The notes under the pieces were generated by a model. It was not told the DNA's origin. It worked only from the letters and a program-made list of their open reading frames with translations, and searched no databases. Positions 332 to 59,060 of a stretch of 64,000 bases of DNA are shown here, in pieces. The translations under genes and the position numbers were made by a program. Source of the stretch: Tridacna crocea (taxonomy: Eukaryota > Mollusca > Bivalvia > Cardiida > Cardiidae); assembly GCA_943736015.1 (NCBI GenBank), contig OX031070.1:25937673-26001672 (forward strand). The letters are read 5' to 3'. Position 1 is the first letter of the stretch. Every line of letters begins with the position of its first letter.

Positions 332-3300
332 GAAGCAGTAGAAGTTCTCCACAAAATCATGGTAGAATACAAAATTTTGAGAAGTCCACAAAACAAAGAA
401 GCGCAAACGGTAAATACTGTTTTAAATTTTATTTGTTGGAAGATTTTTCACTCAACCCTTTACCACACAAATCCTGAGAAGTGGGCCTTATGAAAATACT
501 GTTGGCACAGGAGAAAATGCTGGTGACCAGCATTTTCTCCTTTTCCCAAATTTTCTACCCTACCTTGGATAAATTTTATCATTTGAGCCATGTTTAACTT
601 GTAGTCTCCAATTGTGCTCACCTTGGACCAGTCTAAAGAGTAAACTCTATACCAAACAAAAAAAAAACTAGACTGGTTCAAATTGAGAGCATTTGCAGAT
701 GACAAAATAAATGTACCTAAAATCTGAACTTGTTTTAGGGAAGGGAAGAAAACATTGTTGGAAAAGGAGAAAATGCTGGTCACCTTTTCCCACAATGTTT
801 TCATAAGACTTCTGTAATAGGGTCGTTAAAGGTCGGGATTGTGTGGTAAAGGGTTTACTCTTTACCAAACAACAAAATTTTAGTTTGTCCAAATTGAAAG
901 CATTTGCAGAGGACAATGTAAAAGTGACCGAAAACTTGAAATTTGTTTTGTGAAGGGTAGAAAACAATGTGGGAAAAGGAGAAAATGCTGGTTACCAGCA
1001 TTTTCTCCTTTTCCCACAATGTTTTCTATAGGCTTCTTTCTCAGGGGCATCAAAAGTAGGGTATTTTGTGGTAATGGGTTAACAGACAACCTAGAGATTT
1101 AAGTTCTGATTGGCCAAGGCAGATAGTCTTAATTGGATGGATATCACATGTAAACTCTTCAGCTGTATACAATATAGCCTATCTTCATGAGCTGCAACTT
1201 TATGTTATTATAATTTCCTGAGTAAAAGTTTGGCTATATTATTATAAGTTACTGTTAACCCTGTACCAAATAGCGAAATTTTAGACTGTTCCAAATTGAA
1301 AACACTTGCAGTCTACAAAATAAATGTGGCTCAGAAACTGAAGTTTGTTTCCAGCAGGGTAGAAAACATGGTGGGAAAAGGTGAAAATGCTGGTTACTAG
1401 CATTTTCTCGTTTTACTTCAGTGTTTTCAAAAGCTTTCTCTTTCAGGGCTGTTCAAAGTCACTATTGTGTGGTAAAGGGTTAAACTTCTGTCCACAAAAC
1501 GTATGTAAGAATGTTATTATATTTCAGTAAACTCCTCAAGTGATATTATAGACAGCTATGCAGTTTTACTGAATACATCACCCGCAGATGAGGTACTTAG
1601 CCACATTATTATATTGTAACTCTTTCTCTACTGAATAAATAAAATGTATTTCCTCAAAGGCTAAAAATACATTTCTCTGCAGCTCCAGAGAATGTTTGCT
1701 TATAACCTAGAATATGGCATTGCACAGGGCAGATCAGAGATCAGATTGCATGCTCTGTGCAGTCTGATCTTGATCTACACTCTCTAGAAAAAGTTTCAGT
1801 GGCATTTATTGTATGGGAAAAGTTAACTTTTTAGCAAATGACAAAATTTTAGAATGATCTGTATTGAAAGTATTTGTAAGTAAGAAAGTAGATTTAGATG
1901 TGTATGAAATGACTGCATTTTTCTATGTGCCGCTCTTTCTACTTTCCATTGAAAATCAAGCACTTGCAGCCAAGCATTGGTACCGATATGTGGTGGTCTT
2001 GTTATACCCCCGTAAAACGAATGTTTTCGGGAGTATACTGGAATCAGCCTGTCTGTCTGCTTGTCTGTCTGTCTGTGTGTCCATTTGTGTGTCTGTCCGT
2101 GTGTCCATCCATGTACAAAATACATGTATGTACTAGCAATAGCCTGTTTCAGTCAAAGCGCTGGCGGGGATTTTTGAGTCACATTCAGTGACAGCTCTAG
2201 TTAATATTAGTACTGCTATCACCACAGGATTGCTGTATATGTTGTGAGAAGTTACAAGAATCTTCGGGTCATGGCACAGGTACTTTAGAGGATCATGCTG
2301 TCATCCAGCTGGAGAAGTGTAGTCACATGTTCCATAAACTGTGTTTGACAGCCATGTATGACAGCGGTCCACAGGTGAGCTGCAGTTTGTCACCACTTTC
2401 TGAACTTGGTCATGTAGCATAACAGATTGGAAACACAGTGGCAGAGGGAAAAACTTTCTCAGTATGGATTTGATATGACATAGTGGTTTGTCTCTTCCGA
2501 AACCACATTTTTTTGATGATTTTTAACCCTTTACCAAATACATGTACCAATAATCTTTAGTTGAATCTGACCCTGATAACTTTTCACAAAACGGCAAATG
2601 TCTGCGATAAGATCAGCAACTAGCAATTGCTCTTATCTTATAATATATTCTGTAGGTGTCAATCACTGATGCAAAAGTCTGCATTTAGCAATAATATGGT
2701 AAATTTATGATTAACCTTTTCACATGATCCTGAGTTTTAATGACCATGAGAATAGCCTTTTGAAAACATGGTGGGAAATGGAGAAAAAATGCTGGAAACC
2801 AAAATTTTCTCGTTTTCCAATGTTTTCTACCTGTTCAAGGATAAATACCATGGTTTGAAAGACATGTAGATTCCATCTGTAAACTTCCTTTAACCTGTAG
2901 GCTTTTACTGCAACTCACTTGTCTTTTGCGGCCATGTAGATTAAGGTCAGACTGCATAGAAAGTGCAGTCTAATCTTGGATGTACGCTGTCCAATAAAGA
3001 GATATTTTTGACCAAAAATATAAGTTTGAAGTTACTGTATTTGGCTTGAAAGTTTCATTTAACCCTTTACTCCATAGATACTCATTTCTACTCATTACTT
3101 TTAGGAACATTTTGAAAACATTGTGGCAAAAGGTGAAATTGCTCGTGACGAGCAATTTCACCTTTTGTCACAATGTTTTCTATGCTATCAAAAGGTGTCA
3201 TATACCCATGAAATAAAAGGCTTCACCCTTGCTGTTATATAGGGTCAATCAGAGGGAACATAGAAATGCCGTATGGGGTAAAGGGTTAAACTGTTTAGCA

Positions 3301-6300
3301 GGATAAGGGTTAACTCTTTACCACACTAGAAAATTTTAGACTGCTCCAAATTGAAAGCATTTGCAGACAACAAAATAAAGGTGATTGAAAAATTGAAATT
3401 TGTTCTGGGAAGGGTAGAAAACACTTTGGGAAAAGGAGAAAATGCTGGTTACCAGCATTTTCTCCTTTTCGCACAGTGTTTTCAAAAGGCTTCTTTCTCA
3501 GGGCGTCAAAAGTAGGGATTGTGTGGTAATGGGTTAATATAGAAAGGACATAAATTTTGATGTGTGGTAAAGGGTTAAGAGTTTGTGTGGATTCAGGCCT
3601 TAGTCAGGATGTCAGGATTTTAAAGAAATTTTTTCGGAAACAAATTGTAGGAAGGAAGTCTACAGTGTCCCACTTGTAAGACATTTTATGGCGAGAAGCG
3701 GGGAAACTGTCCTGCTGGAGAGATGGAATATCATGTGATCAGTGCAGTTCTACCAGGCTATGAAGGCCATAAAACTATACAGATATCTTATCACATACCT
3801 TCAGGGACACAGGTAAGCTGGGGGGGATATGATTTGAGTAAGGGAGAGAGCTAACTGTTAAAATACCTTCATGGCTATAGTTGCCTTTGCTGTCAGTATA
3901 GATCAAGATCAGGCTGCACAAAAAGTGGAGCCTGATCTTTGATCTATCCTCCACACTCTGCTGAAACACTCTACACGAAAGCAACTATGAAATTGTGATT
4001 ATTCAGGTCTTATTTTTTTGTACACGGAGTATGTATGTTATGTTTATTCGGCACTCTAAGAGATAACTCTTAACCCTCTGCCACACAATCCTGGCTTGAA
4101 ATAACCCTGAGAAAGAAGCCTCTTGAAAACATAGTGGGAAATGGAGAAAATGCAAGTAACCAGCATTTTGTCCTTTTCTCACAATGTTTTCTGCCCCTTT
4201 CAAAGCAAATTTTAGAATTCTGTTGTATGGAAAAAGGGTTAATGATGGAAAATAAACATGTTTAACCCTTTACCTCACAATGACGACTTTTAACACCCTG
4301 AAAGAGAAAGTATTTTGAAACATTGTGGGAAAATTAGAAAATGCTGGTAATCAGTATTTTCTCCTTTTTGCACAATTTTTTCTACCCTGCTTGAATCTCA
4401 TCTGAATTTTTGAGTTATATTTTTCGTCTGCAAGTGCCTTCAATTTGGACTAGTCTAAAATTTTGTGGTTTGGTAAAGACTTGACTATGTATCACATAAT
4501 CCTGGCTTTTAACAACCATGGGAGAGAATCCTTTTGAAAACATTGTGGGAAAATGAAAAAAATTCTTAATTCTTTATTGCAACACCTGGACTTTTAACAA
4601 CCGTAAAGAAGAAGCCTTTTGAAATCATTGTGGGAAAAGAATAAGATGCTTATAACCAGCATTTTCTCCCTTTCCCACTATGTTTTCTACCCTACTAAAA
4701 CCAGAATACATCATTTTAGCTACATTTAAATTGTTGTCTGCAGCTACTGACAATTTGCACCAGTCTAAAATTTTGTTGTTTGATATTGTGTTAACAAGTA
4801 TTTTTACCTTTCCCTATAAACAAGTTTCTATTTTTTATTCACATTTGTCATCTGCAAACGCTTTCAATTTGGACAAGGTTAAAATAATATCTCTTCCTAT
4901 GTTAACCTTTTACCAAACCATCCCAATCACCATTCAATGGCCTTAACTCTTTACCACATATAACCAAATAATAGACTTGCCCAGATTGAAAGCATTTGCA
5001 GAAAACAATTTAAACATAGCTCAAATGATGGAATTGGTCTTTGATAGAGTAGAAAATATTGTGGGAAAAAGAGAAAATGCTGGTTACCAGCATTTTCTCC
5101 TTTTCCCACAATGTTTTCAAAAGGCATCTTTCTATGAAACTTTGTAAGTCGGGATTGTGTGGTTATGAGTTAAGGAAGCAGGCCAACTCATGTCAGATTT
5201 CTTTGAACACATATTAGTATTTCCCAGTGTATAGATCAGAAAATGTAAGACCATCTTGAGATGCACGAGCAGCAATATCCATAAAACCAATTCACTTCCA
5301 TCAAATAGGTACGAAATGATGCCAAAAATTGTGATATCAAATGTGTGTAAGATAAGAAAATTGTACTGGGTATATTACGCTGAAAACAAGGGAGGCTATG
5401 TGATACATGTATAAGTAGTTTTTTCTGGTAATAGTTTTGTGTTCAACATTATAGGGCCCAGAGCATCCCCATCCAGGCAAAAGATACTCCACGCGTGGGT
5501 TCCCGCGTATTGGTTATGTACCAGACTGTGATAAAGGAAGAAAGGTAAGATAAGTTTTTTTTGTTTATCTCTCTCACAGGCCATTAGGCAGAACTGCTGG
5601 AAAACTTTAAGAACATATTATTGAAAATTGTCTCATCGATTTAGTCCTTCACCATAATTTTATGTAGGTCCAAATTGAAAGTGTTGGTAAACAACAAATT
5701 ACATGCAGCTCAGATTGGTAACTTACGAAATTTGTAGTTGAAAGGTTAGAAAACATGTCGGTTATCTACATCTTCTTCTTTTGTCCATAATATTTTCAAA
5801 AGCTTTCTGGGTGCTTAACCTTTACCAAACAATCCATGGTTTATAGGACTCTGAGATAGAAGCCTTTTGAAAACATTGTGGGAAAAGGAGAAAATGCTGG
5901 TAACCAGCATTTTCTCCTTTTCCCACAATGATTTCTGCCCTACTAGAAACAAATTTAAATTTTTGAGTTACGTTTATTTTGTCGTCTGCAAGTGCTTTCA
6001 ATTCGGAACTGTCTAAAATTTTGTTGTTTGATAAAGGGTTAAAACAAGAGATTGTTTGGCAACTTGTTCCTAGAAGACTTTGCATGCCACTGATTGGCTG
6101 CTTTCCCAAATCATTAAAGTAGGAGTGAGAAATTGATAAGTCCTGCCATCATGACAAAATAAAAGTGACTGAAAATTTGAAATTTGCTTTGTGAAGGGTA
6201 GAAAATATTGTGGGAAAAGCAGAAAAAGCTGGTTACCAGCATTTTCTCCATTTCCCACAATGTTTTCTAAAGGCTTCTTTATCAGGGTTGTCAAAAGTTG

Positions 6301-7645
6301 GGATTGTGTGGTAAAATTACCTTTATTTTGTGGTCGGCAAATGCTTTCAATTTGGACAAACCTAAAATTTTGGTAATGATTTTAGAATGGAGGAGGTTTT
6401 TGAGATTTTTTTTCTAGACTGAAAATATCCATTGTATTAAGTTGGCTCTAGTAATTTAATCCTTTACCAAACGACAAAAGTTTTTACTTTCCTTCATCAA
6501 ATGGAGACCATTTGAAAAAGACAAAATAAGTGTAGCTTAAATGATGATTTCTGTCACTGATAGAGTAGAAAACATTGTTTGTAAAGGGAGAGAAGCAGGC
6601 TGGTAAGTAGAATTTTCTCCTTTTCCTGCAATCTTTTCAAAAGCTTTCTTCTTCAGGGTTGTTTAACCCTTTACCTGATATGCCAATTTGAGGCTCTTCC
6701 ATTTCAGCAGCAAATAAAGATATGATGTCAGAAATATGGACAAATGAGGATACAAATATCTGATTGATTGGAAAACATTGTTGGAATAGGAGAAATTGCT
6801 CGTAACAAGCAATTTCTCCTTTTCCCACAATTTTTTCAAAAGCTGTCTGTTGTTGATATGTCAAAATGAGTATCTATGGAGTAAAGGATTGATTGATAAA
6901 AGGAATACCGGTATTACAATTTGCCAGGGTAAAGATTGATTAACTTTTTACCACACAACAAATTTTAGACTCATCCAAATTGAAAGCATTTGCAGATGAC
7001 AAATCGAAATTAATGTGGCTGAAATTATTAAATTTTTTTTCCTGAAAGGTTTAAAACATTGTGAGAAAAGGAGAAAATGCTGGTTACCAGCATTTTCTCC
7101 CTTGTCCAAAATGTTTTTAAATGGCCAATTTCCCAGAGTTGTTAAAATGCTGGATTGTGTAGTACCACACAATCCCTACTTTTGACGCCCCTGAGAAAGA
7201 AGCCTTTTGAAAACACTGTAGGAAAAGGAGAAAATGCTGGTAACCAGCATTTTCTCCTTTGCCCACAGTGTTTTTGATCCTTCCCAGAATGAATTTCAAT
7301 TGTTCAGTCACCTTATTTTGTCGTCTGCAAATTCTTTCAATTTGAACCTGTCTAAAATTTTGTCGTGTGGTAAAGAGTTAAACTATATGTACATTATGTA
7401 TGTTGATTTTCGTTTCAAAGGTTTTACAACTACTGATTGTGGCATGGAAACGGAGGTTGACCTTCACAATCGGTACGTCAGCGACCACGGGTGAAGATGA
7501 CACTGTGATATGGAATGAGATCCACCACAAAACAGAGCTGGGTACCAACTATTCTGGTCATGGGTATCCAGACCCCAAATATTTGGACAATGTTTTACTT
7601 GAGCTTGCAGTGCATGGGATTACAGACAAAGATTTGCCACCTTGA
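332..7645 (+). CDS. DTX: Deltex-family E3 ubiquitin-protein ligase, 3' part (six exons; N-terminus outside window)
   Basis: Exons read directly: 332-409, 1528-1592, 2228-2374, 3651-3812, 5455-5544 and 7421-7645 (stop TGA). All are bounded by AG/GT and phases join without a stop. The first two encode a Ser-rich linker (frame starts at 334; the codon across the first junction is G|TA). 2228-2374 plus the start of 3651-3812 encode a RING finger: CCICCEKL, then CSHMFH, then CPTC, giving the Cys/His zinc ligands. The rest ([72 protein letters not shown]) is the Deltex C-terminal domain, complete to the end. Known role: RING-type ubiquitin transfer, modulating Notch signalling in the cytosol/endosome; the DTC domain binds NAD+/ADP-ribose in human members. 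About 255 residues are visible; WWE domains, if present, lie upstream. The RING plus DTC pattern fits DTX1/2/4 best, but DTX3-type cannot be excluded without the N-terminus. Introns are filled with TTAA palindromic elements. Confidence 0.95.
456..639 (+). mobile_element. TTAA MITE type A, right end damaged
   Basis: Left end CCCTTTACCACAC after TCAA; core centred near 524 (CTGGTGACCAG). Right TIR lost. First Deltex intron in the window. Confidence 0.8.
644..853 (-). mobile_element. TTAA MITE type A, core half deleted
   Basis: Long arm first; one inner arm of the palindrome (between GCTGGTCACC and TTTTCCCAC) is missing, so no hairpin can form. Confidence 0.8.
858..1078 (-). mobile_element. TTAA MITE type A, intact
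   Basis: 221 bp, perfect core 961-1027 apart from the outermost pairs; TTAA at 1079-1082. Confidence 0.9.
1259..1479 (-). mobile_element. TTAA MITE type A, diverged core
   Basis: TTAA on both sides (1255-1258, 1480-1483). Core mismatches on the right arm only (CTCGTTTTACTTCAGTG). Confidence 0.88.
2001..2200 (-). mobile_element. CTAGAGCTGTCACTGAATG element (copy 1)
   Basis: Reverse-oriented copy in the second Deltex intron. It has the hairpin GTTATACCCCCG / CGGGAGTATAC at 2001-2041, then (CTGT)n-rich sequence, then the complement of the 5' start at 2181-2200. Confidence 0.7.
2718..2895 (+). mobile_element. TTAA MITE type A, degenerate
   Basis: Core 2760-2832 with CTGGAAACCAAAATTTTC; right part eroded. 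Third intron of Deltex. Confidence 0.65.
3063..3285 (+). mobile_element. TTAA MITE type B, intact
   Basis: TTAA at 3059-3062 and 3286-3289. Ends CCCTTTACTCCATAGATACT and the inverse of CCCTTTACCCCATACGGCAT. Core 3113-3180 has arms ACATTGTGGCAAAAGGTGAA and centre TTGCTCGTGACGAGCAA. Confidence 0.92.
3314..3533 (-). mobile_element. TTAA MITE type A, intact
   Basis: TTAA at 3310-3313 and 3534-3537; core 3416-3484 with one arm changed to TTCGCACAGTG. Confidence 0.9.
3871..3992. mobile_element. Short palindromic element, CAGACTGCA family
   Basis: GATCAAGATCAGGCTGCAC (3901-3919) is nearly inverted at 3925-3944. The outer TAGTTGCCTTTGC / GAAAGCAACTA words form imperfect ends. Relics with the same GTGCAGTCTGATCTTGATCT core lie near 1719-1796, 2921-3000, 8076-8136, 26945-27000, 56165-56200 and 62478-62530. 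Confidence 0.6.
4074..4238 (+). mobile_element. TTAA MITE type A, internally deleted
   Basis: 165 bp; TTAA both sides (4070-4073, 4239-4242); most of the long arm is missing. Confidence 0.85.
4266..4480 (+). mobile_element. TTAA MITE type A, diverged
   Basis: TTAA 4262-4265, right TTAA mutated to TTGA; core about 4318-4383. Confidence 0.82.
4575..4795 (+). mobile_element. TTAA MITE type A, diverged, preceded by another fragment
   Basis: Core about 4622-4688. A left-end fragment of a second copy lies at 4490-4560, and a right-arm fragment at 4796-4900. Confidence 0.75.
4947..5169 (-). mobile_element. TTAA MITE type A, intact
   Basis: TTAA 4943-4946 and 5170-5173; core 5055-5121 near perfect. 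Confidence 0.9.
5819..6038 (+). mobile_element. TTAA MITE type A, intact
   Basis: TTAA 5815-5818 and 6039-6042; core 5868-5934, one mismatch. A degenerate copy occupies 5640-5810. Confidence 0.9.
6150..6316 (-). mobile_element. TTAA MITE type A, left part missing
   Basis: Core 6200-6266; a right-arm scrap of opposite orientation follows at 6317-6376. Confidence 0.75.
6460..6662 (-). mobile_element. TTAA MITE type A, degenerate
   Basis: TTAA 6456-6459; core reduced to scattered matches around 6565-6640. It abuts a type-B copy sharing the TTAA at 6663-6666. Confidence 0.7.
6667..6888 (-). mobile_element. TTAA MITE type B/C intermediate
   Basis: Ends as type B (inverse of CTCCATAGATACTCATTTTG), but the core (6768-6838) is AGGAGAAATTGCTCGTAACA, mixing type A outer arms with the type B centre. 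Confidence 0.85.
6944..7377. mobile_element. Two TTAA MITEs fused end to end
   Basis: 6944-7164 (minus) and 7165-7377 (plus) meet at GGATTGTGTAGTACCACACA (7153-7172), where the usual TTAA and terminal GGG/CCC are gone. Outer TTAA at 6940-6943 and 7378-7381 remain. The pair ends 43 bases before the last Deltex exon. Confidence 0.88.
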
Positions 7646-16386: not shown

Positions 16387-17977
16387 TTTAGCTCACCTGA
16401 GCACAACGTGCTCAAGGGGAGCTTTTAGGATCACCCGGTGTCCGTCGTCCGTCGTGCGTCGTCCACAATTCTTTAAACATCAACTCCTCCTAAACCGCTG
16501 GGCGGATTTGGACCAAACTTGGCAGGAATGTTCCTTGGGAGGTCCTCTTTAAAAATTGTTCACAGAATTTGATTCCATCAAAAACTCTGGTTGCCATGGC
16601 AACCAAATGGAATTTTTTAGCAAATTCTTTAAAAATCTTCTCCTCTGAAACCGCTGGTCGGATTTTGAAATAATTTCACAGATATGTTCCTTGGGTGACC
16701 CTTTTCAAAAATGTTCGTGAAATTTTGATTCGTCAAAAAATGTGGCTCTGGTGAATGGGGGCTTCTTGCACCATACAGAAATGAAGGAATTCTTTAAAAA
16801 TCTTCTCCTCTGAAACCGCTGGTCGGATTTTGAAATAATTTCACAGATATGTTCCTTGGGTGACCCTTTTCAAAAATTGTTCGCGAAATTTTGATCCGTC
16901 AAAAAATGTGGCTCTGGTGAATGGGGGCTTCTTGCACTATACAGAAATGAAGGAATTCTTAAAAAATCTTCTTCTCTGAAACCGCTGGTCAGATTTTGAA
17001 ATAATTTCACAGAGTTGTTCCTTGGGTGACCCTTTTCAAAAAGTGTTCGCGAAATTTTGATTGGTCAAGAAACATGGCTCTGGTGAATGGGGGCTTCTTG
17101 CACTATACAGAAATGAAGAAATTCTTAAAAATTCTTCTTCTCTGAAACAGCTGGTTAGATTTTGAAATAATTTCACAGAGATGTTCCTTGGGTTACCCTT
17201 TTCAAAAATTGTTCGCGAAATTTTGATTGGTCAAGAAATATGGCTCTGGTGAATGGGGGCTACTTGCACTATACAGAAATGAAGAAATTCTTAAAAATTC
17301 TTCTTCTCTGAAATGGCTGGACAGATTTTGAAATAATTTCACAGAGATGTTCCTTGGGTGACCCTTTTCTAAAAGTGTTCGCGAAATTTTGATTGGCCAA
17401 GAAACATGGCTCTAGTGAATGGGGGCTACTTGCACTATATGGAAATGAAGAAATTCTTGAAAATTCTTCTTCTCTGAAACCCGTGGTCAGATTTTAAAAT
17501 AATCTGACAGAGATGTTCCTTGGGTGACCCTTTCCAAAAGCTGTACATATAATTTTGATCCGTCAAGAAACATGGCTCTTGTGAATGGGGGCTACTTGCA
17601 CTATATGGACATGATGAAATTCTTTAAAATTCTCTTTCTCTGAAACCCCTGGTCAGATTTTGAAATAATTTCAGAGAGATGTTCCTTGGGTGACCCTTTT
17701 CAAAACTTGTTCATAAATTTTGATCCATCAAGAAACATGGCTCTCGTGGATGGGGGCTACTTGCTCTTATACAGAAATGAAGAATTCTTACAAATTCTTT
17801 TTTTTGAAACTGATGGTCAGATTTCGAAATGACTTTTACAGGTGACCTTTTGAAAATTGCTTAGCTAAATTATAAATTTGGTTCCAATGTTTCAATACCT
17901 CAAAAAAAAAAAGAAAATAGACTATGGTCATCTCAAAAATTCAGGTGAGCGATCCAGGGCCATCTTGGCCCTCTTGT
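16387..17977 (+). mobile_element. Hairpin-ended element with ~168-bp tandem repeats (TAGCTCACCTGAGC family)
   Basis: Starts TTTTAGCTCACCTGAGCACA with nested inverted words. Then come seven to eight tandem units of about 168 bp from about 16620 to 17870 (key words: GAAACCGCTGGTCGGATTTT, ATGTTCCTTGGGTGACCC, GGCTCTGGTGAATGGGGGCT). It ends TCAGGTGAGCGATCCAGGGC followed by the hairpin AGGGCCA-TCT-TGGCCCT and CTTGTTT. The inverted subterminal word GCTCACCTGA / TCAGGTGAGC plus a 3' hairpin, with no TIR and no coding sequence, fits a non-autonomous Helentron/pearl-like element. Class is inference; family membership with 28538-29583 is direct. Confidence 0.72.
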
Positions 17978-35059: not shown

Positions 35060-35690
35060 TCTTAAGATGGCATGTAGGGTAGTATTTCCGTTACTCAAGA
35101 AAGTAGAAGCAGAGTTGAACAAACTTGAAAACGCAGGAATCATTGAAAAAGTTAACCCTTTACCACACAATCCTGACTTTTAACACCCCTGAGAAAGAAG
35201 CCTTTCGAAAACATTGTGGGAAAAAGAGAAAATGCTGGTAACCAGCATTTTCTCTTTTTCCCACAATGTTTTCTACCCTTCTGGAAAAAAATTTCTTTTT
35301 TCAAATTATATTTAATTTGTTGTCTGCAAGTGCTTTCGATTTGGAATAGTCTAAAATTTTGTTGTTTGGTGAAGAGTTAACAAGCTAACAGACTGGTGTG
35401 CAGTTATGGTACCGGTAGTGAAACCAAATAATACTGTAAGGATATGCGTCGACCTACAGAAATAAAACAGTGCAGTCAAAAGAGAGAATTATATGTTACC
35501 TAACTAAGAAGACATAGCACCAAAATTAACAGGATCAACATTATTTTGGAAGTTAGATGCATCAAGTGGATTCTATCAAATTCCACTGGACAGAGATAGT
35601 TGTGAATTGACCACGTTCATCACACCATTGGGAAGATATTGCTTCAAATGAGTACTGTTCGGCATCACATCAGCATCAGAAATATTTAAA
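35060..35690 (+). pseudogene. Ty3/gypsy reverse transcriptase, N-terminal part, interrupted
   Basis: Short stretches in shifting frames match the gypsy RT start: a lysine/glutamate-rich segment ending GIIEK (to about 35151), TDWCAVMVPVVKPN (from about 35389), then a segment with FWKLDASSGFYQIPLD and FITPLGRYCF, then FGITSASEIF at about 35660-35690. Several stops are present. A TTAA element (35156-35376) splits the first two segments. The relic then breaks off near 35692, where a larger insertion starts. Confidence 0.82.
35156..35376 (+). mobile_element. TTAA palindromic MITE, type A, inserted in gypsy RT (reference copy)
   Basis: A 221-bp element between TTAA at 35152-35155 and 35377-35380, splitting RT sequence that reads through when it and one TTAA are removed. 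Structure of the family: TIR CCCTTTACCACACAA / complement CTCTTCACCAAACAA; short arm with CTTTTAACACCCCTGAGAAA; a 67-bp palindrome (35208-35274) with 33-base arms starting GAAAACATTGTGGGAAAAAG; long arm with TTGTCTGCAAGTGCTTTC and GTCTAAAATTTTGTTGTTTG. A TTAA target and CCC-starting ends fit a piggyBac-type transposase source, by inference. Short-arm-first copies are called plus below; they have GGTAACC at the centre, reversed ones GGTTACC. Confidence 0.93.
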
Positions 35691-35691
35691 A

Positions 35692-37148: not shown

Positions 37149-37860
37149 AAAATGAAAGAAATTTTATGTGACTTACAAGGGTCGAGGTCATAATTGATGA
37201 CATTTTGATACATGGTAAAACAATCTACGAACATGATAAAAACCTAGAAAAAATGTTTTAAGAAAAATCTCTGAGGTGGGGTTGAAACTGAATTACGACA
37301 AATGTGAATTCCGTAAAACCAAAATTGAATACTTTGGACATTTTATCACTCCAGAAGGCATTCTTCCAAGCCAACAGAGAATTGAAGCCATTAAATCCAT
37401 GAGATCACCCACAAATGTCACGGATCTGAGAAAAATTGTTGGCAATTACTTTGGAAGGTTCATTCCAGATCTCACATCAATAATACAACCATTAACTGAC
37501 TTGCTAAACCCTTCCAACATACGGTACTGGGACTCGAAACAAGAAGAATCATTCACAAAAATCAAGGGCTTACTTACAAAAGTACCAGTGTTGACACTGT
37601 ATGATCAAAACAAACCAATTATCATGAGTGCTGATGCAAGTAGCTATGGGATTGGAGCAGCATTATTTCAAGAAGAGCAGGGAGAAATAAAGCCAATAGC
37701 TTACTGTTTAAGAAAACTAACAGAAACTGAACCAAAGTATGCTCAGATCGAAAAAGAATGTTTAGCAGCAGTTTGGACATGCGAAAAATTTTCATGATAC
37801 GTGGTAGGGCTAAACACAAATTACTTACCAATCACAAGCCAAATGTATCCAGTTGAGAAA
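37149..37860 (+). pseudogene. Ty3/gypsy reverse transcriptase end and RNase H, continuation
   Basis: Resumes with MKEILCDLQG, followed in a shifted frame by VIIDDILIHG, in which the YxDD-type active-site Asp pair appears as IDD. A 173-codon open frame from 37276 holds [23 protein letters not shown], a thumb region, [20 protein letters not shown] (RNase H Asp) and [14 protein letters not shown]. It stops at 37797; out-of-frame RNase H sequence (VVGLNT) follows to about 37860. No integrase or 3' LTR was seen; a tRNA-like fragment follows. Confidence 0.85.
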
Positions 37861-37866: not shown

Positions 37867-37934
37867 GCAGCTTGAACCCAGGACCCCTCACTTACAGGGT
37901 GAGTGCTCTACCGACTGAGCTACCGGGCTGCTTA
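37867..37934 (-). mobile_element. tRNA-like SINE head fragment (Lys-tRNA-like)
   Basis: The minus strand reads GCAGCCCGGTAGCTCAGTCG then GTAGAGCACTCACCCTGTAA, with a plausible D arm and anticodon stem CTCAC/GTGAG. The T arm cannot pair and the acceptor has no partner, so it is not a functional tRNA gene. Confidence 0.6.
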
Positions 37935-38295: not shown

Positions 38296-38576
38296 AACTT
38301 AACAAGAAAAATTGTGTAAAATTTATGTTCCTTGAAAACTTTTAAAATCATGACTTTACTTCTAAATTACATGGTAACTACTTGTTATGTTACCGGTAAT
38401 TGTGATGATACAATATCTAATGAATATTGAGTAAAACAGAAAAAACAGAAAAAAAGGACTATTGTATCCTATTGCACTTTATCTATGACTAAATTACATA
38501 CATGTGTAAAAAAGTGAAAGTACATGTACTTCAGTAGCTGAGGCTGAGTTGTTCCTTTTTTAACATCAGTGTTTAA

Positions 38577-38798
38577 CCCATTACCACTCAATCCCTACTT
38601 TTGACGCCCCTGACAAAGAAGCCTTTTGAAAACACTGTGGGAAAAGAAGAAAATGCTGGTAACCAGCATTTTCTCCTTTTCCCACAGTGTTTTCTACCCT
38701 TTCCAGAACAAATTTCAATTTTTCAGTCACCTTTATTTTGTCGTCTGCAAATGCTTTGAATTTGAACCAGTCTAAAATTTTGTCGTTTGGTAATGGGT
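38577..38798 (+). mobile_element. TTAA MITE type A, CACTG/CAGTG variant, rearranged right end
   Basis: TTAA 38573-38576; core 38626-38693 with matched CACTGTGGG and CCCACAGTG. Beyond 38798 the end is followed by TGTAAGGTTTTAA and an inverted second copy of the terminus, CCCATTACCAAACGACAAAA (38811-38830), then ACCTTACACCC. Confidence 0.88.
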
Positions 38799-39041
38799 GT
38801 AAGGTTTTAACCCATTACCAAACGACAAAACCTTACACCCATTAAACCTTTAGTATGTGTATATCATTAAGATTTTCAGCACATGAATGTTTTTCCCTTC
38901 CATAGACAAATCTCAACATTTGATTTGTTGCCACGAGAGTCTTGTCTGCGCATGTGACAATTAAAAATGTCTGGTCTTATTCCCAAGCCTATAGGGGCTC
39001 TGTTTATAAATGACTGGTGCAAAGGTCATATGGACTAGCTC

Positions 39042-39340
39042 GCATAGCTCAATAGGTAGAGCATAGGACTCGTGAATGTGATGTTTCGAGTCCCTTAAGG
39101 GTGTGGGTTGATCCCCACAGCTGGCCATCTAAAATTAAAAATAGTCTTTTGGATAAGACATTAACCCGAGGTCCCATGTGACGGTGCTACACACCAAGCA
39201 CATTAAACAACCAGGCAAAACTTAGGATGGGTTTCGTCCTGTATCTCCACTATCCCCCATAACAATACTAATAGCCTTCAAGGGGTGTTGCCCATATGGG
39301 CAACTGCTAGTGGCGATAAATAAATGCAAATTCAATCTGT
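39042..39340 (+). mobile_element. tRNA-derived SINE of a second type
   Basis: Head CGCATAGCTCAATAGGTAGA with GCATAGGACTCG and GGGTTGATCCCCACAGC (box B-like), then AAGACATTAACCCGAGGTCC, GTTGCCCATATGGGCAAC (a hairpin) and an AAATAAATGCAAATTCAATCTG tail. The body differs from the other SINEs. Confidence 0.7.
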
Positions 39341-39703
39341 CATATGCTAGCTAACCTTAGATGGATGAATTTTATCACTTAGCATTTATTTAGTGAATGT
39401 TTATTTTGAAATTTGAAGTAATGTTTGCTGTTTTGAAAAGTAGTCCAGTTCTGTACCCACAATGCCCAAATCAGATAGGTGTGTATCTGAAAAATGCCAC
39501 CTAGCAGAAGATAATGGCCGCCAGAGGAAATGGATGAGGAAATGTATGAATTCAAAGTTCTGTCATCTTGTAATGTGTGAATCTGCACCTCTTTGAGTAA
39601 AAACTCAACACAAATGATCACCGGTATTTTCAAAGACTAACTATTACCTGTAGGTTATCACCAAAGCAAGTATTTAGTGGTATAGGTGTTTGTCAACCTT
39701 TAA

Positions 39704-40147
39704 CTCTTTACCACACAAGAAAATTTTAGACTGGTCCAAATTGAAAGCATTTGCAGACGACAAAATAAATGTGAATGAAAATTTGAAATTTGTTTTGTGA
39801 AGGGTAGAAAACACTGGGGGAAAAGGAGAAAATGCTGGTTACCAGCATTTTCTCCTTTTCCCACAGTGTTTTCAAAAGGCTTCTTTCTCAGGGGCGTCAA
39901 AAGTAGGGATTGTGTGGTAATGGGTTAACCAAGCGCCAAATTTTTAGGCTTGCCCAAATTGAAAGCATGTGCAGATGACAAAAAAAACGTAACTCTAAAA
40001 TTGAAACTTGACCTAAGAGGAATAGAAAACATTGTGGAAAAAGGAGAAATTCCTGGTTTGGCTACAAGTATTTTCTCCTTTTTCCTTGATGATTTCACAA
40101 GGCTTCTTCCTCTGATTCGTAAAAACCAGGGATTGTTTGGTAAAGGG
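39704..40147 (-). mobile_element. Two TTAA MITEs type A sharing one TTAA
   Basis: 39704-39924 (core 39807-39873, CACAGTG variant) and 39929-40147 (core 40026-40098, with a non-palindromic centre TTGGCTACAAG) are joined by TTAA 39925-39928. Confidence 0.9.
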
Positions 40148-40397: not shown

Positions 40398-40643
40398 TAA
40401 TCATATATTCATTTAACTTCAATTTTATGTAGTTGTTATTTATGTGTAAAATTGTTACATGTCTGTTTTAATTGTAATAATTGGCAGCATGCCAAAAAAA
40501 GAATACTAAACTGTATTTGTCACATGTGAAATTGTGAATGTACCTTATTATGGGCAAGTCAAAAATCTCATTGTCTGTTAAAGAGATCAGGAGGTCTTAA
40601 GTACAAAGTCATGCAAATAATAGATACTTATGAAGTTTATTAA

Positions 40644-40866
40644 CCCATTACCACACAATCCCTACTTTTGAGGTCCCCGAGATAGAAGCCTTTTGAAAAC
40701 ACTGTGGGAAAAGGAGAAAATGCTGGTAACCAGCATTTTCTCCTTTTCCCACAGTGTTTTCTATCCTTCCCAGAACAAATTTCAATTTTTCAGTCACCTT
40801 TATTTTGTGTTGTCTGCAAATGTTTTCAGTTTGGACCAGTCTAGAATTTTCTTGTGTGTTAAAGAG
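40644..40866 (+). mobile_element. TTAA MITE type A, intact, CACTG/CAGTG variant
   Basis: TTAA 40640-40643 and 40867-40870; core 40693-40759 perfect. Confidence 0.92.
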
Positions 40867-40887
40867 TTAATACATGTATTACCGTTG

Positions 40888-47640: not shown

Positions 47641-47814
47641 ATCAAGGGACTGAACTTCATCAAAAGCTGTTTATTCAAATTTATAATTTTGGCACATTTT
47701 TAGACTGTGCTCATGAAATTCAAATAAACAGGCTAAATCTTTTTTCAAGAAACACTTGCCATGTTACATATAGATCTAAGCAGTCAAAACAGTGTACTGT
47801 CATTGGTCTGGCCA

Positions 47815-48016
47815 TGGCCGATCTGCATTGCTTGCAGGAGCCTTTGGAAAACATTGTGGCAAAAGGTGGAATTGCTCGTGACGAGCAATTTCACCTTTTG
47901 CCACAATGTTTTCTACACTATCAAAAAGTGTCATATACACATAAGAAATGGCTTCATCCTTGCTGTTATTTAGGGTCAATTAGAGATATCACAGAAATGC
48001 CTTATGAGGTAAAGGG
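47815..48016 (+). mobile_element. TTAA MITE type B, left end lost
   Basis: Core 47848-47914, TTGCTCGTGACGAGCAA centre. A diverged type A copy follows at 48020-48245, whose counterpart in unit B is 54575-54780. Confidence 0.85.
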
Positions 48017-48318
48017 TTAGGTTAGGTCATCTCCATTCCACACAGTCCAAAGTTTTAACAAACCTGTGAAAAGGCCTTTGAAAACATTATGGGAATAAAA
48101 GAAATATCTAGCAACCAGGGTTTTTTTCCTTTTCCCACCAAGTTTTCTTCCCTATCAAAGACCAAATCCATTATTTGAGTCCCAATAGTCGCCTGCATAT
48201 GCTTTCAATTTTGACAAATCTAAAATTTTGTCTTTTGGTAAAGTTTAGGGTGACGCATAGGTTCAATTTAGGTTCAAACATTTAATACTCCATTTATCAA
48301 ATTTGACCTTAATGACTC

Positions 48319-51969: not shown

Positions 51970-52631
51970 TGCACACACACTCTTCTCAGTCATTTTCAAC
52001 AGACTTTGAAGAGTTTTTTTTGGTATTTCAGTGGAACTGGAATAAAGCTGTTTTTTTCCCCTGAGATACTATCACTAGAACTATATATTTCATCAACGAA
52101 AGATTTTTTTTCGGATTATAAAAGTGGTTTTCGGCAAAACAAATGCTAGAGCAGATGAGTTATCATCAATGGTGTTTTCTGGCATATTTAGGTGGGTTCA
52201 TAAGAGTAAATTTAAGGGTAACCCCTAGTTAAACTCTAACTAAACAACACCCATCCACCCACTTGATATGTTGTTGTTTTTCTGAAGTTTTTCTGAACTT
52301 CCTTCCTCCAATTCTGCTAGTTCACATGTGAACCCACCCATTTGACCCTTACCCGCACTCACTATGTATTTTGGTAAATTTTGGGTGTTTCCTGGCATTT
52401 TTCAAGTCATTGGGTGGTTTTCGGTCTTTTAGGGACTAGTTTTTACTCCTTTTGCCATGTTTTCAAAAGCCACCTCATTTAAGGGTTGTTAAATTCGAGA
52501 TTATGTGGTAAAGGGTTAAGGGTACATTTATGAATATTCATTTTAAGTCAACAAGAATAAGTTACAAACGGCCTTCCACAAGGAATTATGTTGCCGACAC
52601 GTTTCTAAAAGTGAACTCTAGGAATTTTTAA

Positions 52632-52852
52632 CCCTTTATCCCATAAGGCATTTCTATGGTATCTCTAATTGACCCTAAATAACAGCAAGGATGAAGCTGT
52701 TTCTTTTGTGTATATGACACCTTTTGACAGCATAGAAAACATTGTGACAAAAGGTGAAATTGCTCGTGACGAGCAATTTCACCTTTTGCCACAATGTTTT
52801 CCAAAAACTCCTACAAGCAATGTGCAAAAATGAGTATCTATGGAGTAAAGGG
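52632..52852 (-). mobile_element. TTAA MITE type B, absent from unit B of the duplication
   Basis: TTAA 52628-52631 and TTGA 52853-52856; core 52736-52803 near perfect. Unit B has GGAGCTTTTAAGAAGTTTCA at 56026-56045, the empty TTAA site. Confidence 0.93.
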
Positions 52853-53987
52853 TTGAGAAGTTTCAAATCAACAAAGTGTCTCTCAACTTGAGGTTATGCT
52901 CCTGTCTTAATGATTACATAGTATTTGCAACAAACTTATATCACATTTTGAGCCCTAGAATAAAATCTTTGCACGTAATGAGAACTGCAGAATGTGTTGT
53001 CCGATTTTTGATCCATTTCATGTGCAGAAGCCTCAAGTATTCCAATGTAGCTGCGAGTCTTGAACCTCTACCAAACATAAAAGAAATGCAAAATACTTAA
53101 TCATTTGTGCGATATTTAGAAGTTCCTGTATTTCATGAACACTTTTAATTTCTTTCAACTCTGTTGATCGATAACGATTTATGTCAATGGGAAGCTCTGT
53201 GTGGCACGAACAGGAAACCGGCTTTTAGGTATAGTTTTATAGTCAAAGGGAGAAAACTCGTTAATACTTCATCACCTTCTTCATGGCAGAGTTACATCCC
53301 TTATATTTGTGGACAGCATAAAACCACAGACGAATAAACATCGTTGCAGTTTTTCGAAGACGATCTGTATCAAAAATAAGTTTGTTGAGGTGTCATTATT
53401 TCTGGTAGAGGTTAAGACAGAATTGAAGATGCTGCTACTTCTGAAAATATCATGGTAGTTGACAAAAGAAAGAAAAATCAATCGCAGACGAGCTTACTTT
53501 TTTGTAAATAGGCTCTGCAGTAGTCTCCCTTGTATTTCGTAATATTTGTAAACATGGCGACCGCCGAAATTTTAAATTGGAAAAAAAAAAACCCAATCTG
53601 CATGGTCATCAAAGTAAGAGCCCACGCGGAATCGAAATATATTTTTATAATGAAACTTATCAACTGATGCATGTGTACGATAAATAATCTTTCTTATATT
53701 ACAAATTAAACTTGCAAACCAACGACAAGCTTTCGCTCAATAAGGTTTTCGAGGTTATTAGATAAATATCGTTAATACGGGCAAAATTGTCAAATTCCAA
53801 TCATTTCTTTGATCATTGACCGTAAGGAACAGGAGATGGAGAGAAAATCTTCCAAGCTAATAAACGAAGATAAAAGCTGTGCTTTTCCCGGCATTATTGA
53901 TGTTGTTTCTAGTTTAACCTGCCCCACCCCCTATTTTTCTGAGTGGAAGAAGTTTATAAGATTGGAGGCCACTCTCTAACAGTTTAA

Positions 53988-54208
53988 CCCATTACCACAC
54001 AATCCCTACCTTTGACGCCCCAGAGAAAGGAGCCTTTTGAAAACACTGTGGGAAAAGGAGAAAATGCTGGTAACCAGCATTTTCTCCTTTTCCCACAATG
54101 TTTTCTACCCTTCACAAAACAAATTTCAAATTTTCAGTCACTTTTATTTTGTCGTCTGCAAATGCTTTCGATTTGGACAAACCTAAAATATTGTCGTTTG
54201 GTAATGAG
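53988..54208 (+). mobile_element. TTAA MITE type A, intact, absent from unit A
   Basis: TTAA 53984-53987 and 54209-54212; core 54035-54101 with CACTG on the left but CAATG on the right (an unpaired change). Confidence 0.92.
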
Positions 54209-54574
54209 TTAAACATTTAACCCCCTGTGACCAAAAAATGATTTGAAATAACACAACTCCGTTCCCTCTTTGACTGAAAAATAAAAACGGGCAAACCAAA
54301 CTTTTAAATTCAATCAGTGGACAATACTCGTGTGTACACATGAACGTGCAGTAGGATCTTGAATCTACACGGTCCAATCAGAACATTTTTAAAAAGAAAA
54401 ATCCTTTGAAATACCAAAGATTGGGTTTTTTAAATCGGCTTCAAAAGTTCATTTTACTTATGAAGCAGAATAAGGGTTAACAGAGGGTCCGGGTTTTTCG
54501 ATGAACCGTATCTTATCAATAGCTTGATTCCAATTGATTTTGAAAAAGATTCCAACAAATAGTGTGGGAAAAGA

Positions 54575-56550: not shown

Positions 56551-57096
56551 TTAAATGATCTTTTCTGTCTAAAGAAAAATTTGTGAAAAAAAAGAAGACA
56601 ATTCTTCTTTGAAAAAAAGAAGACAATTCTTCTGAACAATATATTCACCTCTCCTTTTCCTACAGTTTTTTTCAAAACCCCTCTTGTAGGTTGTTAAGAC
56701 ATAAATTTGTGTGGTAAAGTATTAAAAAAATTACAAATAAATAAATTAACAAATGATCAAAAAAAGAAATTCCCAGTCGGATATGAATATGCATTTACTT
56801 ACAGAAGCCATTTCTCTCAACATGTAGAGTTACTTCCTGAAAAATTTATATCATACCAGTATTCTGTTTGTCATGGAAAGCAACATAAAATATTTGTTTA
56901 TAAACTTACCATATGTGAAGCACTCTTTTTTTTATTGAAACCCTGAGCAAATAACCTTTGTTCTAAAAACCTTTAGAGAGGGAAAACTTTGAAAACATGG
57001 TGGGAAAAGAAAATGAGGCTAAGCAGCATGTTTTCATTTTTTCCCACAGTGTTTTCTACTCATTCAAATACAGTTTACATAATTAGGCCACATAAA

Positions 57097-57511
57097 CTCT
57101 TTACCGAACAACAAAATTATAGACTGGTCCAAATTTAACCCTTTACCACACAATGACAACTTTTAACACCCCTGAAAGAGAAGGCTTTTAAAAACATTGT
57201 GGGAAAAGGAGAAAATCATTTCATATGAACCACATTGAAACTGTCATCAGCAAATTCTTTCAATTGGGACAGGTCTAAAATCTTGTCATGTGGTAAAGGG
57301 TTAAAGCATTTGCAGATGACAAAATGAATGTGACTAAAAACTGAAATTCTGTTTGGGAAGGATAGAAAACATTGTGAGAAAAGGAGAAAATGCTGGTTAC
57401 CACCAGCATTTTCTCCTTTCCCACAATGTTCGCACTTTCTCCTTTTCCCACAATGTTTTCAAAAGGCTTCTTTCTCAGGACTGTTAAAAGTTGGGATTGT
57501 GTGGTAAAGAG
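57097..57511 (-). mobile_element. TTAA MITE type A interrupted by a second copy
   Basis: The outer left arm reads to GACTGGTCCAAATTTAA (57138), then an inner copy, then TTAAAGCATTTGCAGATGAC continues it from 57301. Outer core about 57365-57470, with a partial triplication of the arm. Ends at TTAA 57512-57515. Confidence 0.9.
57139..57300 (+). mobile_element. TTAA MITE type A nested inside another copy
   Basis: TTAA 57135-57138 and 57301-57304. It retains only the left half of the core. Confidence 0.9.
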
Positions 57512-57515
57512 TTAA

Positions 57516-58080
57516 ATTTGTTTCCTGCAAATGCTTTCAATGAGGAATAGTCTGAAATTTTGTAGTCTGGAATTCATTTGTAGAAAATACGTCTTGCCCT
57601 TTACATTTTTTTTTTTCAAACTTACACATGTACAACAACATGATATCAGAAAATCATCCCTGCATTAAATGTTCCATGATTTCAGAGAATTTTCATGAAA
57701 AAAGGAACAAAGTTTAAGATATCAAAAATGTACGAGATAAAATGTGAATAGCAAATGCCATTTTGTAACTAAATGAAAGAAAAAAATAAACATATAATGT
57801 TTTTAGAATATCATAGAGTAGCAAAGGTTTAAAAATCACAAAATAAAAGAAAAATATAACAAAAGATTCCAAAATTTTACAAAAGAACTGTTTCTGTTTC
57901 AGCACATCATTCATCAAAACAATAAACACCATGGTTCTACATTTCTCACCTGAGTTCAAAGCTCATAACAAGAGGAAATATCACATCTGTTGCACAGTAA
58001 AATGATACGCGACAAGAGAATAGTTTAAAAAACTTCATTTTATGCCAATGTGATTATGCAGTACAGTATACTATATTTAA
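57516..58080. other. No gene recognised
   Basis: A scrap of TTAA-element long arm (57517-57570), then AT-rich sequence without motifs. Confidence 0.5.
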
Positions 58081-58225
58081 CTAGAGCTGTCACTGAATAT
58101 GACTTAATACCCCCGCCAGCACTTTGACAGAACAGGCAATTACTTATACTAGTATTCTGTAAATAGAAGGACACACAGATGGATGGACTGACACACAGAC
58201 GGACAGACACAAGGGCCATTAGACC
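58081..58225 (+). mobile_element. CTAGAGCTGTCACTGAATA element (copy 3), 3' truncated
   Basis: Same 5' start and GGACACACAGA-type microsatellite, but the terminal hairpin is missing. It runs into a TTAA element at 58244. Confidence 0.6.
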
Positions 58226-58243
58226 CTTTATATTTTTCTTTAA

Positions 58244-58462
58244 CCCTTTCCCAAACAACAAATTTTGTATCCTTCCAAACCGAAAGAGTTTGCAGACGAC
58301 AATTTTAGATTTGGAGAAAATTGCAGAAAGCTCTCAAAAAGGGTAGAAAACACTGTGGGAAATGCAGAAACTGCTCGTTACGAGCAAATTCTCCTTTTCC
58401 CACAGTGTTTTCAAAGACTTTTACTGCAGACACGTAAAAACCAGGGCTTATTTGGGAAAGGG
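58244..58462 (-). mobile_element. TTAA MITE type C, intact
   Basis: TTAA 58240-58243 and 58463-58466; ends CCCTTTCCCAAACAA and the inverse of CCCTTTCCCAAATAAGCCCT; core 58347-58412 with CACTGTGGG / CCCACAGTG and CTGCTCGTTACGAGCAA. Confidence 0.9.
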
Positions 58463-58556
58463 TTAAAAAGTCTACAAGAGTTCCTAAGACATTAATCCCA
58501 TTTTCAACAATCCATATATTTCAATTATGTCCAACTTGTAAGCCCCTGTCTTTAAC

Positions 58557-58730
58557 TCTTTACCAAATGACAGAATTTTGGACTTATAAATGAAAAAACA
58601 CTTGTATACATCAAATTAAATCTGGTCCAAATTTATTTTGGAAGCGTAGAAAACATCGTGGGAAGAAGAAAAAATGGTGGTAACCAGCATTTTCTCCTTA
58701 TCCACCAATGATTTGAAAAGCTTTGTGAGG
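58557..58730 (-). mobile_element. TTAA MITE type A, right end lost
   Basis: TTAA 58553-58556; core 58646-58715 mutated on both arms. Confidence 0.78.
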
Positions 58731-58841
58731 CTAATAATAAATTAGCCATTTGATCAGCTGGACAGAGTGGTACGACCTTATTTGGAAAAAAACCCACACA
58801 CTTTCTTATCATTTGCCATTCTAGGGTTAGACAGTTTTTAC

Positions 58842-59060
58842 CCTTTCCAAAGCAACAAAGTTTGGACTCTTCCTAACCGAAAGAGTTTGCAGACAACAAG
58901 TTTAGATTGTGAAAAAATGGCAGAAAGTTCTCAAAAAGGGTAGAAAACACTGTGGGAAAAGGAGGAATTGCTTTTTAAGAGCAATTTCTCCTTTTCCCAC
59001 AGTGTTTTCAAAATACTTTTACTGCAGACACGTAAAAACCAGGGCTTGTTTGGGAAAGGG
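58842..59060 (-). mobile_element. TTAA MITE type C
   Basis: Right TTAA 59061-59064; core 58946-59011 with centre ATTGCTTTTTAAGAGCAAT. Left TTAA mutated. Confidence 0.88.

Follow-up and report, generated by a model that had tools for sequence, protein, structure and literature searches.

Families of a TTAA-ended MITE in Tridacna crocea differ by paired substitutions in a conserved central palindrome

The closest published match that we found is the CMITE group of Acropora corals. As far as the main text of that report describes them, CMITEs have TTAA target duplications and ends starting CC[C/T]T, are associated with piggyBac-like transposons, and comprise several families in which different terminal repeats are combined with one common interior whose conservation exceeds that of the ends (PMC2872659). 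The same text suggests a role of this region in transposition and states that the internal regions of MITE families usually differ (PMC2872659). The second system relevant here is template switching in quasipalindromes, a known process which is predicted to homogenise the arms, to produce multi-base compensatory changes and to invert the spacer (PMC8794818, PMC8604942).

The element described here forms a TTAA-ended MITE superfamily of about 229 bp (median TTAA-to-TTAA length 229, 229 and 228 in families A, B and C). It made up 17% of 20 sampled 10-kb stretches (190 matches), which were placed at chosen round-number coordinates and were not a random draw, and extrapolation gives about a million matches. 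TTAA was present exactly at both model ends in 170 of the 233 A and C copies in which neither end was missing (A 139/193, C 31/40; a further 46 copies lacking an end were excluded) and, by a looser end search, at both ends of 29 of 37 B copies. The consensus ends start CCCTTTACCACACAAT (A), CCCTTTACTCCATAG (B) and CCCTTTCCCAAACAAG (C), each with an inverted partner, and the terminal inverted repeats fit the CC[C/T]T start except in A1, where CCCATT departs from it at the fourth base. The element shares with piggyBac/TTAA MITEs in general the TTAA at both ends, short terminal repeats beginning with CCC and a high copy number, but differs from them in having at its centre a long palindrome that is conserved between families whose ends differ, a combination which to our knowledge is unusual. 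With CMITEs it has in common the TTAA duplications, CC[C/T]T-type ends, several families and an interior more conserved than the ends. However, CMITEs are only about 100 bp long with about 1,600 copies estimated in A. millepora, neither "palindrom" nor "hairpin" appears in the main text on them, and we found no description there of paired changes between families such as those of our element (PMC2872659). In the corals, a MITE interior conserved above its ends was reported as an unexplained oddity; in the present element this conserved interior is palindromic, and the families differ by paired substitutions. A search of the open-licence literature, which was not targeted to the species, returned no account of this element in the portions covered.

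The core palindrome comprises 67 bases (33+1+33). Arm sites were numbered 1-33 from the outside inwards, and the right arm is given as its reverse complement. Families A, B and C are similar in their palindromes but not in their ends, and their flanks have diverged; the cores differ at pairs 8, 14, 21, 26 and 31, always in both arms. In one copy each of A, B and C, the hairpin fold was strong, with energies of -38.0, -34.8 and -30.0 kcal/mol, respectively (z = -13.8, -14.0 and -11.6). The initial annotation of the window (the whole stretch of 64,000 nucleotides analysed) had proposed four paired changes between subfamilies. Alignment confirmed CATTG/CAATG to CACTG/CAGTG at pair 8 in the copies at 38577 and 40644; GGAG/CTCC to GGTG/CACC was seen as T/T at pair 21 in 35 of the 37 full-length B copies, and ATGCTGG/CCAGCAT to TTGCTCG/CGAGCAA in B as T/T at pair 26 (36/37) and C/C at pair 31 (34/37). 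The change of GGG/CCC to GGC/GCC in B held for pair 14 (C/C in 36/37) but not for the neighbouring pair 13, where the left arm has G and the right arm is read as A in 28 of the 37 copies, the others being G/G (5), A/G (1), A/A (1) and other or gapped (2). With this one-sided change at pair 13, the majority of B copies read GGC/GTC, as do three of the four examined in the window. Family C (n = 41) has C/C at pair 8 in 37 copies, T/T at pair 26 in 40 and C/C at pair 31 in 35. In the main A1 cluster (n = 84), pair 8 is C/C in 38 copies, T/T in 40 and in another state in 6.

Table 1. Copies of the element in the window
Position	Strand	Copy	Remarks
3056..3300	+	family B; pairs 14, 21, 26, 31 changed in both arms, 13 in one arm	model match including some flank
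6656..6893	-	old B-flanked copy	A state at pairs 14 and 21, B state of both arms at pair 26
35153..35380	+	family A; pair 19 changed in both arms	
38574..38799	+	family A (A1b); pair 8 C/C	palindrome 38628-38694
39700..39927	-	family A; A1a-like right flank, pair 8 C/C	transitional or mosaic
40641..40870	+	family A (A1b); arms fully complementary	palindrome 40695-40761
47789..48030	+	family B; GGC/GCC	model match including some flank
52618..52861	-	family B; centre base C	model match including some flank
53984..54212	+	family A, one-arm; left CACTG, right CAATG	
58240..58466	-	family C	
58837..59064	-	family C; both arms changed at pairs 8 and 26, T/T at pair 32	
59290..59517	-	family A (A1a); pair 8 A/A in both arms	
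63076..63317	-	family B	palindrome 63191-63257; model match including some flank

Copies with more than four core gaps were excluded, and so were copies with fewer than 110 flank letters from the first column-independence test, the trees, the permutations of the sampled-stretch and pooled sets, the divergence estimates, core/flank comparisons, G.U and centre-flip tests and final family counts. Identical copies were counted once in the later counts. L001 occupies the same place as the window and was excluded, the transposase loci L049-L054 were left out of the copy counts, and L175-L194 were used only in the comparison of pair-8 one-arm relatives and in the linkage table.

The one-arm copy at 53988-54208 proved to be as it had been described, and its state recurs in five close retrieved relatives (L056, L066, L176, L179 and L180). 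Its left half fits subfamily A1b and its right half A1a, and L180 is also a mosaic; the copy at 53988-54208 may be a genuine intermediate or the product of recombination. The A/A state of the copy at 59290..59517 was found in one of ten retrieved relatives (L124), the nearest relative (L115) being T/T, and among 12 retrieved relatives of the copy at 35153..35380 two (L135 and L143) had pair 19 changed in the left arm only. Pair 31 is C in the right arm only in the copy at 6656..6893 and in the left arm only in the C copy at 58837..59064. The former, with pair 26 changed and pairs 14 and 21 not, implies a stepwise B lineage.

When the consensuses of families and subfamilies were compared, six differences were paired (pair 8 in A1b, pair 8 in C, and pairs 14, 21, 26 and 31) and only one, pair 13 in B, affected one arm; this tally is our own count from the consensuses and comprises few events. 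In young copies, defined by no more than four changed sites in the arms and counted without pair 8 in A and pair 13 in B, 12 matched changes were found versus 323 one-arm changes, a ratio significantly different from that among the consensuses (Fisher p = 6e-8).

Inside subfamilies the picture was different. The initial annotation had named as its refutation a tree in which a handful of founders explains all paired states without covariation inside subfamilies, and this is largely what we observed at that level, although not between families. Pair 8 belongs to a set of linked marks that characterise subfamily A1b (r2 0.76, rank 7 of 435 site pairs); it was passed on with founder haplotypes and is linked no tighter than other subfamily marks. 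Without pair 8, the family A copies of the sampled stretches contained 13 matched double changes, compared with 11.3 by permutation (322/1000). A weak excess was seen in the pooled set, which includes relatives retrieved as best matches or chosen places and is not a random sample, both in family A (32 versus 23.3 expected, 54/2000) and in family C (5 versus 1.9, 37/2000), classes with fewer than three copies being excluded. One-arm states occur in several copies each at pairs 7, 8, 18, 19 and 22; five among the 20 relatives of the copy at 39703 carry the one of pair 7, and pair 20 is changed in the left arm only in two A clusters (5 and 4 copies). After insertion the arms gather mostly one-arm changes, and the spread of one-arm states (on internal branches and at pairs 13, 7 and 20) implies that an element does not need perfectly paired arms.

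We considered, and rejected, the idea that one arm is frequently corrected from the other in resident copies. The apparent excess in family A by a column-independence test (70 matched changes versus 24.9; 54 versus 23.8 without pair 8) was largely due to pair 8, which supplied 42 of the 70, and to the mixing of young and old copies. Permutation stratified into five divergence classes took away most of this excess; the observed/null values in family A were 1/0.9, 1/1.5, 10/8.4, 21/19.1 and 21/14.7, the oldest class still lying above the null (10/500). Subfamily-mark switches across the palindrome (2 in 117 copies) were dropped as proof of a unique coupling of the arms because other mark pairs were equally tight in the linkage table of all segregating sites. 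Where selection on folding or rewriting of one arm by repair or snap-back copying had been suggested, the part that stands is that source elements are kept palindromic, be it by selection or by rare rewriting of an arm; the data do not support a frequent, continuing rewriting in resident copies.

The tree, poorly supported as it is (197 of 291 nodes at 0.7 or above, 35 at 0.9 or above), placed 6 clear paired events (8 with two ambiguous reconstructions) and 1 clear one-arm event at clades of at least 20 copies. All internal branches together carried 7 paired and 34 one-arm changes and were richer in paired changes than the terminal branches (38 to 672). The 38 matched changes on terminal branches compare with 17.1 or 22.5 expected under two nulls. 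On short terminal branches (lengths 0.03-0.1) there were 14 versus 2.0 expected, but this excess, like the weak one within families, includes shared states split by the poorly supported tree and copies retrieved as relatives of matched ones. Changes that restored pairing were also more frequent on terminal branches than expected (12 versus 5.3), which could reflect rewriting of the arms.

Both shared variants (1.06% versus 3.5%) and singletons (1.1% versus 2.0%) were rarer in the core than in the flanks. Core identity between the A-subfamily consensuses and those of B or C was 0.82-0.94, whereas the corresponding right-flank alignments reached 0.73-0.83, just 0.03-0.12 above shuffled sequence. 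The ratio of arm to flank divergence was 1.03 in the 15 closest pairs and 0.38-0.68 in the five classes of the other 121 pairs. As the arms change at the flank rate in the youngest pairs and more slowly in the others, the constraint probably acts in source elements, and the pairing between families, far beyond chance, likewise implies that something keeps these palindromic. Pairing appears to be kept in multiplying copies, not repaired in resident ones. We therefore favour, with a probability of roughly 0.6 for the explanation as a whole, that the superfamily consists of short TTAA-flanked, predicted non-autonomous piggyBac-type transposons in which the palindrome is the best-conserved part, and that their source elements are under a constraint which holds the two arms similar to each other and near one sequence. 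The palindrome may be used during mobilisation or amplification of the element, which would place the constraint on multiplying elements; one-arm mutants would then multiply for some time, and long-lived lineages would mostly be those whose second arm followed the first. Either a half-site or a hairpin requirement would yield paired changes. A recognition sequence present twice in inverted orientation (putative protein half-sites) seems to us slightly more likely than a need for a folded hairpin, because the arm sequence itself is conserved beyond complementarity. One genome with enough neutral copies separates events in resident copies from demands on multiplying copies, so that selection versus template switching in hairpin evolution becomes directly countable.

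A possible but rather doubtful alternative is that, either in source elements or in the course of transposition, one arm serves as the template from which template switching or snap-back copying renews the other, which would turn a one-arm mutation into a paired one in a single step and sometimes invert the centre base. The restoring changes and the matched excess on short terminal branches are consistent with it, and so is L090, in which the B pair-13 mismatch sits on the opposite arm. A centre base flipped to the complementary one was present in 7 of the 41 C copies (all A to T, mapping as seven separate steps; 0.6% A to T in flanks, p = 7e-8) and in 8 of 37 B copies (1.2% G to C in flanks, p = 1e-7), four more B copies having changed to T. 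However, comparable C flank columns are scattered as well, five of the eight B flips lie on a common flank haplotype, and family A, the largest, showed no excess (12/238 versus 3.5% in flanks, p = 0.21); the signal of spacer inversion is present in two families and absent in the third. In addition, unlike in quasipalindrome template switching, most new changes here stay in one arm and one-arm states are common, each in several copies, while in the sampled stretches the number of matched changes in family A, once pair 8 is set aside, is close to that expected by chance. If rewriting acted alone, the core would also be expected to drift as fast as the flanks, and this is not observed. Less likely still is a self-correcting palindrome module, each mobilisation of which would involve a hairpin or single-stranded intermediate where a polymerase that switches strands would copy arm onto arm; its own copying would keep the core palindromic, strand-switching would sometimes invert the centre base, and founder amplification would spread the paired states. 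Two related candidates were discarded. An apparent enrichment of centre flips in A, about sixfold relative to core sites (25/266), was not significant in full-length copies, the early count having included six units of the tandem array L021 and copies whose short flanks leave their orientation uncertain. Inversion of the whole core does not fit the eight centre-flipped B copies, which keep the pair-13 mismatch on the usual side, L090 being the one swapped case.

A pure founder effect, in which a few source elements carried the paired differences by chance and nothing maintains the palindrome, is already disfavoured and seems quite improbable. It would account for the resemblance of pair 8 to any other linked A1b mark and for the mostly independent mutation of resident arms, but not for a core conserved while the flanks diverged far, and given the young copies the 6:1 ratio among the consensuses is unexpected under founders. 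The lowest probability of all is given to the hairpin working as RNA (a transcribed stem, a small-RNA source or a substrate of host RNA editing), with selection keeping the stem paired. In its favour, the strand forms a nearly perfect stem when folded with DNA parameters. However, a scan of the whole window at Rfam gathering thresholds gave a single match, a tRNA at 37874-37929, and none at the element, and one-arm transitions on the element plus strand had no preference for G.U over A.C (198 versus 222), a comparison of low power. The one-arm transitions in this comparison are probably mostly neutral.

PF13843 gave 118 matches, many of them without internal stops. Among the six PF13843 loci examined no partner transposase with matching ends was found; the ends could be located in two of them (CCCATTTATGCCTG and CCCTTTATATACTA), and only their first bases were common with the MITEs. 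An autonomous piggyBac-type partner would have to carry the MITE ends CCCTTTACCACAC, CCCTTTACTCCATAG or CCCTTTCCCAAAC.

The palindrome lies within an element bounded by TTAA at either end (median length, TTAA to TTAA, 228-229 bp), the termini of which are short inverted ends starting CCC: CCCTTTACCACACAAT in family A, CCCTTTACTCCATAG in family B and CCCTTTCCCAAACAAG in family C. When twenty 10-kb stretches of the same genome (1.05 Gb, 31 contigs), taken at round coordinates from 16 large contigs, were searched with models of the three families, 190 matches (A 166, B 15, C 9) occupied 34,165 of 200,000 bases (17%); the window (C15:25937673-26001672) contained 97 model matches over 17,232 bases (27%). 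Extrapolation from the sampled stretches gives about a million MITE matches genome-wide, fragments counted.

We numbered the arm pairs 1-33 from the outermost to the centre. The family A consensus arm is GAAAACATTGTGGGAAAAGGAGAAAATGCTGGT, left and right alike, and the element strands fold into near-perfect hairpins. Compared with A, the consensus differs in both arms at pairs 8, 26 and 31 in C and at pairs 14, 21, 26 and 31 in B, and subfamily A1b differs from A1a in both arms at pair 8. The consensus arms bore out every pair at which the initial annotation had named matching changes. Its GGG/CCC to GGC/GCC substitution in B was correct as to the change at pair 14, but the usual B state is GGC/GTC. 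At pair 13 the right arm alone was changed in 28 of 37 B copies, and 5 of 37 carried paired G/G.

The paired changes are non-random at the family level. Of the consensus differences, 6 were paired and 1 was confined to one arm; in individual copies carrying no more than four altered arm sites, the corresponding counts were 12 and 323 (p = 6e-8). In a tree built from the flanks only (296 copies), 6 clear paired events and 1 one-arm event were assigned to clades of 20 or more copies; the paired to one-arm ratio was 7:34 over all internal branches and 38:672 on terminal ones. The B changes arrived in at least two steps if an old B-flanked copy belongs to the B lineage and is not a mosaic, since it shows the change at pair 26 but not those at pairs 14 and 21.

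Within subfamilies, pair 8 spread along with a founder. In the A1 cluster, C/C (38/84) and T/T (40/84) tracked the haplotype of the flanks, and a few copies looked mosaic. The linkage between the two sites of pair 8 (r2 0.76, rank 7 of 435 site pairs in 98 A1 copies) was looser than that of several pairs including one or two ordinary subfamily sites. When right arms were shuffled within divergence classes, matched changes in family A were close to chance in four of five classes and in excess in the oldest. With pair 8 omitted, the counts were near chance for the 79 A copies of the sampled stretches (13 vs 11.3, 322/1000) and for the 44 from the window (12 vs 9.7, 263/1000); with it included, both exceeded the null (19 vs 12.2, 19/1000, and 19 vs 12.1, 17/1000), as expected of a founder-linked pair. 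In a larger pooled set, enriched for relatives of interesting copies, the excess was weak in A (32 vs 23.3, 54/2000) and C (5 vs 1.9, 37/2000), and B gave 1 vs 0.5 (855/2000). The terminal branches of the flank-only tree carried 38 matched changes, where nulls based on branch length and on change count gave 17.1 and 22.5, respectively; without pair 8 there were 30 (nulls 16.3 and 21.4), and branches of length 0.03-0.1 held 14 vs 2.0. Part of this excess represents shared states split by the tree; the rest need not. Within subfamilies, the alternative posed initially, that founders explain all paired states with no covariation, mostly holds, as pair 8 and the near-chance counts in A show; the weak excess in pooled A and C and the excess on terminal branches run against it.

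Arms had diverged as much as flanks (1.82% vs 1.76%, ratio 1.03) in the 15 closest pairs of copies, whereas in 121 more distant pairs the arm/flank ratio was 0.38-0.68 across five classes. The frequency of shared variants in the core was roughly one third of that in the flanks, and that of singletons about half. When A subfamilies were compared with B or C, core identity was 0.82-0.94, whereas right-flank alignments rose just 0.03-0.12 above shuffled sequence. We read this as neutral decay once inserted, with constraint in the multiplying lineages. The constraint covers sequence as well as symmetry, since the family consensuses differ at so few pairs (8, 14, 21, 26 and 31 only, pair 13 aside). 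This pattern is consistent with a recognition sequence present in two inverted copies, or with a hairpin whose use is sequence-specific; a pairing-only rule or arm rewriting alone fits it less well. The most likely mechanism (probability about 0.6) would be founder spread combined with constraint acting on source elements.

Rewriting of one arm from the other by template switching is a live, although rather unlikely, rival. Template switching predicts an inverted centre base, and in families C and B complement flips were far commoner at this base than in the flanks. In C, T was the sole change there (7/41 copies; flank A-to-T changes, 0.6%), arising in seven separate steps of the C tree; comparable flank columns were scattered too, averaging 0.79 steps per minor copy. 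The B centre was C in 8/37 copies (five sharing one haplotype) and T in 4/37. However, family A showed no excess over flanks (T in 12/238), and rewriting alone accounts more poorly for the sequence constraint. The centre-flip signal merits attention, yet is too uneven across families for a conclusion. Stem maintenance through template switching and arm homogenisation are described in PMC8794818 and PMC8604942, respectively.

The initial annotation had singled out the A copy at 53988 (CACTG left, CAATG right) as an intermediate, and its relatives did include further one-arm copies: among 20 fetched, pair 8 was left C/right T in 3, the reverse in 1 and T/T in 16. The 20 relatives of the A copy at 39703 gave C/C in 9, T/T in 8, one-arm states in 2 and a gap in 1; 5 of them were changed at pair 7 in the left arm alone. 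Pair 19 was changed in both arms at 35153 and in the left alone in 2/12 relatives. Among eight relatives of the copy at locus L018, pair 18, two-armed in L018 and L153, was changed in the right arm alone in 3, and pair 12 in both arms in 3 and the right alone in 1. In family C, pair 22 was changed in both arms in L003 and L170 and in a single arm in L155, L168 and L158; pair 20 was changed in the left arm alone in two A clusters (5 and 4 copies). Since one-arm states recur at several pairs across multiple copies, they evidently multiply, and paired states may be reached stepwise. Copies like 53988 can alternatively be read as mosaics of an A1b left half and an A1a right half.

The closest published match found was the coral CMITE group; the accessible part of PMC2872659 describes TTAA MITEs, associated with piggyBac-like transposons, whose ends differ but which share a single conserved internal region of unknown origin. 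CMITEs differ from the clam MITEs in length and copy number, and the main text, as far as accessible, makes no mention of a palindrome or hairpin. Many piggyBac transposase frames free of internal stops are present in the host genome. In the two transposase-locus ends recovered, the match to MITE ends stopped after the first bases.

Among other repeats, the L021 array is a MITE incorporated in a satellite. Judged by eye, the open frame in the window looks like part of a gypsy-type retroelement, namely its reverse transcriptase/RNase H end, and the two tRNA-like stretches are perhaps SINE heads.

Coordinates of individual copies and neighbouring features (window positions unless a locus or contig is named)
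Feature	Location	Strand	Details
C copy, flipped centre	L003:1728-1960		
C copies, flipped centre	L013, L014, L156, L162, L163, L173		
Old B-flanked copy	6656-6893		pair 26 in B state, both arms; pairs 14, 21 in A state
B copy (L090)	G000:C5:58199480-58199760		pair-13 mismatch in opposite arm, as if core inverted or both sides mutated
piggyBac transposase fragment clusters	G000 C8:56.71-56.76 Mb; C13:4.48-4.61 Mb		many with stops; open frames elsewhere in genome
Tandem array	L021:509-8682		1,602-base period; each unit carries a single degraded palindrome; six identical cores listed
Tandem array	16622-17830		166-bp unit, 7.3 copies, 90% matches
Open frame	37276-37797	+	173 codons
Weak tRNA match	37874-37929	-	30.7 bits
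tRNA-like stretch	~39040-39120		by eye
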